Of a stretch of 13,146 nucleotides of DNA, positions 9,247 through 13,146 are shown piece by piece; positions within the stretch are counted from its first letter, which is position 1; every line of letters begins with the position of its first letter. The stretch spans positions 1 through 13,146 of the forward strand of contig JAGLYR010000205.1 in NCBI GenBank assembly GCA_023132135.1. Direction: 5' to 3'. Made by a program: the position numbers and the translations under genes. The DNA is from Candidatus Eiseniibacteriota bacterium (GTDB lineage: Bacteria; Arandabacterota; Arandabacteria; JAGLYR01). Under the pieces are notes generated by a model that made no database searches, had not been told where the DNA came from, and worked only from the letters and a program-made list of their open reading frames with translations.

Positions 9247-9331
9247 GTGCTTCGTGCCCCGTGCTTCGTGCAAGGAGAAGGGCATTAGAGACAGTCCCTA
9301 GTCCGTAGTCCCTAGTCCAAGGAGAAGGGCA
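9247..9331 (+). repeat. Heptamer repeat cluster, left copy (modules B-C-A-C)
   Basis: The cluster has four parts. Module B: tandem heptamers GTGCTTC, GTGCCCC, GTGCTTC and partial GTGC (9247-9271). Module C: CAAGGAGAAGGGCA (9271-9284). Module A: AGTCCCT, AGTCCGT, AGTCCCT and partial AGTCC (9293-9318). Module C again at 9318-9331. The same modules occur in inverted orientation at 10453-10567, on the other side of the Cys-rich gene. Periodicity is exactly 7 with substitutions at the last few positions of each unit. The array does not encode protein. Confidence 0.8.
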
Positions 9332-9336
9332 CTTAA

Positions 9337-9393
9337 GCCCCCGGAGGGGGCGGCTCAATGCGAGCCCCGGGTGAAGCGAAGCGGAACCCGGGG
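9337..9393. repeat. REP-like block of three consecutive hairpins
   Basis: Three perfect stems follow one another: GCCCCC/GGGGGC with a 3-nt loop (9337-9351), GGCTC/GAGCC with a 5-nt loop (9352-9366), and CCCCGGGT/ACCCGGGG with a 13-nt loop containing GAAGCGAAGCG (9365-9393). The compact palindromic build resembles repetitive extragenic palindromes. The second and third stems share two bases, so they are alternatives or stacked. Copy number elsewhere is unknown. Confidence 0.6.
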
Positions 9394-9432
9394 GGACAGA
9401 ACAACAACGCCCACCCCTGTCGCGCCTTCACC

Positions 9433-9467
9433 CTATTTCCTATTTCCCATTTCCTATTTACTATTTC
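9433..9467 (+). repeat. Heptamer array of consensus CTATTTC, five units
   Basis: Five adjoining 7-nt units (CTATTTC twice, CCATTTC, CTATTTA, CTATTTC) lie without gaps. An 11-nt piece, CCCTATTTCCT, recurs at the right edge of the window (13124 onward). AT-rich relative to the flanks. Confidence 0.75.
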
Positions 9468-9509
9468 CTGTGGGTACCTGGCGACGCCATCGGCCGCTGG
9501 CGAGTACCA

Positions 9510-9540
9510 GTGAATGGGAAATCGTGAATCGGAAATCGGG
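9510..9540 (+). repeat. Heptamer array of consensus G(G/T)(A/G)AATC, four units
   Basis: Units GTGAATG, GGAAATC, GTGAATC and GGAAATC follow without gaps. The array is related to the reverse complement of the CTATTTC array at 9433-9467: ATTTCCCATT (9442-9451) and AATGGGAAAT (9513-9522) form a perfect 10-bp inverted repeat 61 nt apart. Confidence 0.7.
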
Positions 9541-9549
9541 CTAACTTCC

Positions 9550-9572
9550 GGCCGCTCCTGAGAAAAGCGGCC
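9550..9572 (-). terminator. Hairpin at the stop codon of the Cys-rich gene
   Basis: GGCCGCT (9550-9556) and AGCGGCC (9566-9572) form a perfect 7-bp stem with a 9-nt loop, beginning inside the stop codon of the Cys-rich gene. No U-tract follows on the minus strand. It may end or stabilise the transcript. Confidence 0.35.
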
Positions 9573-10411
9573 TACCTGTACAGCGCCTTGATCTCCGACC
9601 AGCTGGCGTCTTCGGTTGCCGTCGGTCCCTGGCAGCTGATGTAGCAGTCGATCAGCCATTCGGTGAAGAAGCCCGTATTGTAGGAGTAGTTGTGACAGCC
9701 GGGCGGGATCGACGGGTAGTTTGTGCAACCGTAATCGGAACCCTGTCGCCACATAGGCCCGGGCGCGCCATAGAGATCGCAGTAAGAAACGACATTGCGA
9801 TACACGTAGGAATGGCCCCCGCAACGCCACTCGGTTTCACAGCCGGCAGCGATGTTGTAGGAGTTCACGTCCGAGTAGGGTGCGAAGTGAGGACCCCAGC
9901 CGGGATACTGGTAGTACGTGGTGATCATCACGATGAACTTCCCAGTCCCCCGCTCCTCACAGATGCACAGAGGAACACCACCGAAATGGAACGGCCCCCA
10001 CCCTGGAATCTGAGGTATGTACCCATAGATCCCGGCAATCGGCTCCCCCACCGGACAGCAGTCATGATCGGCGCAGTATATCTCCACATCGAGCGATCCG
10101 CGGTAGTGGTAGTGGTTGTACGCCCACCAGACATCCTCCAGGTGGCGGCAGTCGCCGGGGCAGTCGGCCAGGTCAAAGCACGTGCCATACATCGGGGGCA
10201 ACGGTGCGTCCTCATACTGCCCGAAACAGTAACCGAGCCAGTAGAACGTCCAACCTGAGCAGCAGTTGAAGTACATGAGATGGCACTGATCCTGCCGCTC
10301 CGAGTATTCGCGGGCCGGAACTTCCCCGTATTGGGCCGTGCCCATTGGAGTGGCGAAGCTCGCCTGCGGCAACAGCGTGAGCAGCGCAACTGCTAACAGT
10401 AGCCTCTTCAT
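9572..10411 (-). CDS. Secreted cysteine- and tyrosine-rich protein of unknown function
   Basis: I do not recognise this 279-aa protein. A clear Sec signal (MKRLLLAVALLTLLPQ, cleavage near ASFA|TP) precedes a mature chain with 19 cysteines, including two CC pairs (NCC, DCC) and one CIC, and unusually many Tyr, Trp and Gly. Such content suggests a disulfide-stabilised extracellular or envelope protein. Two short segments resemble each other: GYIPQIPGWGPHF-like (IPGWGPFHF) and YPGWGPHF, hinting at an internal duplication. No catalytic motif or membrane anchor is visible. The ATG at 10411 was chosen because GAGGAGG lies 11 bases upstream and the signal peptide begins there; the 80 codons open upstream are translation of repeats. 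It is bracketed by inverted repeat clusters and lacks an obvious promoter, so it could be a mobile or recently acquired gene. An in-frame-unrelated small ORF ends over its start (ATGA). Confidence 0.8.
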   Translation of the reverse strand: MKRLLLAVALLTLLPQASFATPMGTAQYGEVPAREYSERQDQCHLMYFNCCSGWTFYWLGYCFGQYEDAPLPPMYGTCFDLADCPGDCRHLEDVWWAYNHYHYRGSLDVEIYCADHDCCPVGEPIAGIYGYIPQIPGWGPFHFGGVPLCICEERGTGKFIVMITTYYQYPGWGPHFAPYSDVNSYNIAAGCETEWRCGGHSYVYRNVVSYCDLYGAPGPMWRQGSDYGCTNYPSIPPGCHNYSYNTGFFTEWLIDCYISCQGPTATEDASWSEIKALYR

Positions 10412-10527
10412 GCCAGCCACACCTCCTCGACAACTCTCACGGGCCGCTCCGTGCACGAAGCACGGGGCACGTAGCACGGAGCACCGCTTCTCATGCCCTT
10501 CTCCTTGCACGTAGCACCGCCTCTCAT
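10408..10527 (-). CDS. Possible small repeat-derived ORF coupled to the Cys-rich gene
   Basis: A 39-codon frame starts at ATG 10527, with an internal in-frame ATG at 10494 that has AAGGAG six bases upstream. It ends with TGA at 10410-10408, overlapping the ATG of the Cys-rich gene (ATGA). Both ATGs and their Shine-Dalgarno-like sequences come from copies of repeat module C. The peptide (MRGGATCKEKGMRSG...) is mostly translated repeat and resembles nothing I know. If translated it would couple to the next gene; it may equally be chance. Confidence 0.2.
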   Translation of the reverse strand: MRGGATCKEKGMRSGAPCYVPRASCTERPVRVVEEVWLA

Positions 10528-10567
10528 GCCCTTTTCCTTGGACTAGGGACTTCGGACTAGGGACTTG
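10453..10567 (-). repeat. Heptamer repeat cluster, right copy, with a 27-nt direct repeat
   Basis: Read on the plus strand there are three elements. Heptamers of consensus GCACGNN come first: four full units plus GCACC (10453-10485). A near-identical 27-nt direct repeat follows (10481-10507 and 10514-10540, two mismatches), each copy ending in the complement of module C. Last come four heptamers of consensus GGACTNN (10540-10567). These are the reverse complements of the modules in the left cluster (9247-9331). The array stops seven bases before the trpS stop codon. It fills the 163-bp gap between trpS and the Cys-rich gene. Confidence 0.8.
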
Positions 10568-13111: not shown

Positions 13112-13123
13112 GCGGAATTCCGC
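13112..13123. repeat. Perfect 12-bp palindrome GCGGAATTCCGC
   Basis: A self-complementary 12-mer lies about 50 bp upstream of the putative -35 box of the SHMT-trpS promoter. It could be a dimeric regulator site or part of the adjoining repeat region. No regulator family is indicated. Confidence 0.4.
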
Positions 13124-13146
13124 CCTATTTCCTCGACACTCGACAC
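13124..13146 (+). repeat. Start of another heptamer array at the window edge
   Basis: CCCTATTTCCT repeats the beginning of the array at 9432 onward. It is followed by two exact TCGACAC heptamers (13133-13139 and 13140-13146) that run off the window. The truncation prevents judging the array's length. Confidence 0.45.

Follow-up and report, generated by a model that had tools for sequence, protein, structure and literature searches.

Filamentous cyanobacteria carry STRR heptamers, several families per genome, alongside small dispersed repeats. The locus described here is alike in that several heptanucleotide families occur in one genome, mostly between genes, together with small dispersed repeats, while the STRR unit sequences and linker are presumably different from those reported here. 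Heptameric simple sequence repeats were found to be over-represented across bacteria in a 2007 survey, as cited in PMC4692102 and PMC4679880, and both papers also cite the proposal that slippage in bacterial heptamers favors a 7-nt step. An excess of heptamer repeats has already been described in cyanobacteria, Xanthomonas, Beggiatoaceae and bacteria generally (PMC4692102, PMC4679880), and Calothrix heptanucleotides are cited in PMC4692102. The closest described cases are the GGGANTN arrays of Xanthomonas and the TAACTGA arrays of Beggiatoaceae. The GGGAATC/GGGANTN arrays of Xanthomonas and the GGGGA(C/T)T arrays of Nostoc (PMC4692102) are intergenic, with heterogeneous units, fixed and variable positions within the unit and varying unit number, as are the arrays studied here. 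However, each of those lineages has one G-rich unit type, whereas here we found several unit families without G-quadruplex-type runs, and a fixed linker between arrays. The TAACTGA direct repeats of marine Beggiatoaceae and some cyanobacteria (PMC4679880) likewise form many short intergenic arrays per genome, but they repeat a single unvarying unit, often ahead of start codons, while the units here drift and the arrays lie in either orientation. Our arrays share with bacterial heptameric repeats the excess of 7 nt over neighboring periods and the variation by whole units (here between paralogues), and differ in that many of them belong to dispersed modules that contain a fixed linker and are copied as blocks. 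The heptamer excess is already known; the new part is the linker-array grammar, and no description of such a module was found in the open-licence papers searched.

The window, i.e., the whole stretch of 13,146 nt that was analysed, is an entire contig (C119) of a draft genome of 3.40 Mb in 345 contigs. Tandem Repeats Finder (TRF) placed gap-free period-7 arrays at every position where the preliminary description had reported them, including a TCGACAC array near 13133. On the forward strand there is a GTGC-type array at 9247-9271 (GTGCTTC.GTGCCCC.GTGCTTC.GTGC, TRF unit GTGCTTC) and an AGTCC-type array at 9293-9318 (AGTCCCT.AGTCCGT.AGTCCCT.AGTCC, TRF unit AGTCCCT), the unit order of which was found again elsewhere in the genome. 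The reverse strand carries a GTGC-type array at 10453-10484 (GTGCTCC.GTGCTAC.GTGCCCC.GTGCTTC.GTGC, TRF unit GCACGGA), a short GTGC array at 10507-10517 (GTGCTAC.GTGC) and an AGTCC-type array at 10540-10566, for which TRF gave a period of 14, twice 7, and which lies 8 nt beyond the stop codon of TrpRS. Two further arrays on the forward strand, at 9432-9469 (TRF unit CCTATTT) and at 9513-9540 (GGAAATC heptads, TRF unit AATCGGA over 9513-9539), are the left and right arms of one hairpin, the right arm being the reverse complement of the left-arm family. The four mutually unrelated families that had been counted within 1.3 kb are accordingly three, since CTATTTC and GGAAATC are one family read on opposite strands, while their lack of gaps and period of seven stand. 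The fifth heptad family, the TCGACAC array (13132-13146, forward strand, TRF unit CTCGACA), is located where the contig ends, within the start of another dispersed repeat (..CCTATTTCCTCGACACTCGACAC.., 13113-13146, forward strand) that is cut by the contig end. No Rfam family matched the window at its gathering score. An open frame of 277 aa separates the window's two repeat clusters (9572-10405, reverse strand); its product is apparently secreted and rich in Cys, Tyr and Gly, and a Pfam search found no match for it. A composite transposon around this gene, with the inverted arrays about 1.2 kb apart, was considered and rejected, as linker pairs elsewhere vary in distance and orientation.

The GTGC and AGTCC arrays are connected by a fixed 14-nt linker, AAGGARAAGGGCAT, which is not heptad and had been overlooked in the preliminary description. 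With up to one mismatch it has 89 copies in the genome, compared to one match for the reversed control. In the window it is found as AAGGAGAAGGGCAT at 9272-9285 (forward strand) and 10493-10506 (reverse strand), as AAGGAAAAGGGCAT at 10526-10539 (reverse strand), and, with one mismatch (AAGGAGAAGGGCAC), at 9319-9332 (forward strand), where it forms the junction between the array block and the dispersed hairpin module that comes next. The modules of the window, at 9247-9332 (forward) and 10453-10566 (reverse), follow one general order: the linker, a spacer of 7-8 nt, an AGTCC or GTGC array with a truncated last unit, and then the next linker. The spacer at 9286-9292 (forward strand) is the purine-rich TAGAGAC, and others include CAGAGAC, TAGAACA and GAGAAGCG. 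Such blocks stand one to three in succession, and the last linker often directly joins a hairpin repeat. Most linkers are preceded by AGTCC (31) or CGTGC (17) and followed either by spacer and array or by a hairpin module. In tandem intergenic regions the linkers oppose the direction of transcription in a ratio of 12:3, a small sample. The linker was also considered as a ribosome site with an ATG start; this was rejected, as CAT is often followed by C or T, so that no ATG is left that would be in frame with a constant product, and the spacer that follows varies too. Arrays or linkers were found at 22 of 204 contig ends, where 3.3 were expected, as would be expected of repeats that break an assembly, and since the modules coincide with assembly breaks, the genome probably has more of them than this draft shows.

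The second kind of module is a hairpin. The element at 9427-9568 (forward strand) contains an imperfect palindrome and has a paralogue at L040:57-205 that is 86% identical; the hairpin itself (9425-9545), with CTATTTC and GGAAATC arms, has a minimum free energy of -43.7 kcal/mol (z = -4.05). The module joined by the mismatched linker, at 9333-9395 (forward strand; AAGCCCCCGGAGGGGGCGG...CCCGGGTGAAGCGAAGCGGAACCCGGG), also has other copies in the genome, and in hairpins of the type ACCCTCACCCTACCC... the linker was found immediately upstream in all six copies sampled. Other dispersed repeats were noted as well. Palindromic repeats with the ends CTAGCCTG...CAGGCTAG are abundant on many contigs of this genome (e.g., L034, L051, L066 and L075) and look like MITEs, and their cores GTGAGAAATGCAGGCTAG and AATAATCCAGGCTAG have 60 and 39 matches, respectively, in about 1 Mb. 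On L034, near C17:3198-3261, a hairpin repeat TAGTAGGGGCGACCC...GGGTCGCCCCTACTA lies between two inverted linkers, so that the whole is one long palindrome.

Gap-free arrays were counted by period in 1.04 Mb of the genome, comprising the window and contigs C1-C109, each of which contributed no more than about 20-40 kb; genes were taken from simple ORF calls, which makes the division into coding and intergenic arrays approximate. There were 82 arrays of period 7, 61 of them intergenic, compared to 18 of period 6 (one intergenic, the others coding) and 15 of period 8 (seven intergenic), while shuffled sequence gave about two arrays per period. When similar units were merged, eight families remained at period 7, one at period 6 and four at period 8. 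Period 7 is therefore a genuine genome-wide preference, with several distinct unit families as had been proposed, yet its raw count largely reflects copying. Period 8 is mildly enriched as well, which indicates that the process is not strictly confined to seven; this smaller excess includes intergenic arrays of the GCGAGGGG type (e.g., L072:3142-3175 and L076:14236-14261).

Array length changes in exact steps of 7 nt. Among segments that bear an array, 37 of 38 linker-to-linker distances belong to the series 33/40/47/54 or to the series 32/39/46/53/60, in which the spacer is one base shorter; the exceptions are one segment of 55 nt and one pair of linkers without an array. The hairpin element of the window differs from its L040 paralogue by one exact 7-nt indel, located in a heptad arm, with the extra unit in L040. 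Both results, which come from paralogous copies, point to gain and loss of whole units. The units drift while the register is kept: in the continuous array at L060:17764-17886 they pass from ACAGAAA to ACCGAGA and ACTGAGA and then to GAAAATA and GGAAATA, bearing out the drift that had been suggested from the window. In L060 and in the metagenomic contigs L243, L268 and L272, units grow less similar the farther apart they lie, as local duplication followed by mutation predicts, and L268 and L272 switch family within a single register. Two other long arrays were recorded: the 30 drifting units of L272:4764-4976, which change in register from AGAATTC-type to CAGGTTA units, and the 19 units of L177:85-221 (TTTCGGC/TTTTGCA), which show a marked periodicity of 21 nt, i.e., of three units.

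Identical unit orders were found in different AGTCC arrays, which indicates that these arrays were copied as blocks. Identical adjacent units are rarer in them than expected by chance (4 of 62, compared to 19.5 expected). This scarcity may be due to common descent of the arrays, and it does not favor ongoing slippage of single units in AGTCC arrays. It had been suggested that one process makes or spreads 7-nt units. The excess, the several families, the drift and the 7-nt steps agree with this. Independent events of one such process, and its strict limitation to seven, are not supported, as a good part of the array count is due to block copying, seen in the 89-copy linker and the recurring unit orders, and period 8 is mildly enriched too.

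Among the genomes searched, no other one contained the linker-array modules. A search for the GTGC pattern gave 54 matches in its own genome and none in seven other genomes of the phylum, while for the AGTCC pattern two other phyla were searched, with 1 of 392 genomes positive in one and 3 of 384 in the other. Two relatives from the same phylum gave no period-7 array in the 109 kb scanned. The possibility that the linker is a widespread element was rejected, as a collection of 84,980 species yielded, apart from its own genome, 31 single scattered matches that resemble chance hits.

Taken together, the intergenic DNA of this region is probably built of non-coding dispersed modules in which arrays change and drift by steps of 7 nt and from which blocks are copied to new intergenic sites. 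One type of module consists of the linker AAGGARAAGGGCAT, a spacer of 7-8 nt and an AGTCCNT or GTGCNNC array with a truncated core as its last unit; one to three of these stand in a row, and a hairpin repeat often comes directly after them. The other type is a hairpin, the arms of which are heptad arrays. Within the arrays whole 7-nt units would be gained and lost, most likely via replication slippage or misaligned recombination, and point mutations would then shift the unit sequence with the register of seven retained. Finished blocks, including the linker, would be copied into new intergenic sites, so that modules would accrete side by side. Slippage as the mechanism of the steps, the route of copying and the lack of a dedicated function are what we infer for these modules.

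A broader reading, which we consider possible but rather doubtful, is that a single process with a 7-nt step, indifferent to sequence, makes unrelated heptad arrays in scattered bacteria, that the register is kept through the drift between families, and that a modular dispersed repeat joined by linkers has captured this process here. Such a process might reflect a bias in how DNA is replicated or repaired, or might be the work of a dedicated enzyme.

It is unlikely that the heptads are binding sites of a DNA- or RNA-binding protein that recognizes four to five fixed bases in every seven, with the arrays being selected regulatory elements. The variation in GTGC units falls mainly at positions 5-7 and that in AGTCC units mainly at positions 4, 6 and 7, consistent with such sites, and a translational role was proposed for the TAACTGA heptamers of Beggiatoaceae (PMC4679880). 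However, the concentration of variation over all arrays is slight (0.80 compared to 0.75 expected, p = 0.03), and the patterns within families reflect shared ancestry. Moreover, the arrays have no clear preference for a type of intergenic region, and several unrelated unit sequences have the period alone in common.

We give slightly less weight still to REP/REPIN-type elements mobilized by a RAYT (Y1) transposase, although the modules are reminiscent of REPs and REPINs (PMC3116915 for REPINs) in being dispersed and intergenic, REP-like hairpins abound in the genome, with linkers joined to some of them, and the genome contains one Y1_Tnp gene. The imperfect palindrome characteristic of REP/REPIN elements is present in the 9425-9545 hairpin, whereas the linker-array block is not a clear hairpin: the two blocks fold only modestly better than shuffled sequences (z of -1.9 and -1.6). 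The Y1_Tnp gene scores weakly (29.7 bits), no linker or hairpin among those tested was found in the 3.2-kb locus of this sole Y1 gene detected in the draft genome, and no RAYT was tied to the block. Least probable of all is a dedicated enzyme that writes 7-nt units (e.g., a polymerase that is templated or telomerase-like, or a transposase that duplicates 7 nt on insertion), whose differing template or target would account for families that share nothing but their period and for a register that survives the family changes in L060, L268 and L272, but the decay of similarity along long arrays fits local duplication and mutation, period 8 is also mildly enriched, and a search within the Y1 transposase family found no candidate.

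The prevalence of 7-nt steps in bacterial tandem repeats has been noted since 2007 as something still to be explained. With several unit families, paralogues that differ by one unit and transitions between families within a register, this genome offers cases on which slippage can be weighed against a dedicated process.
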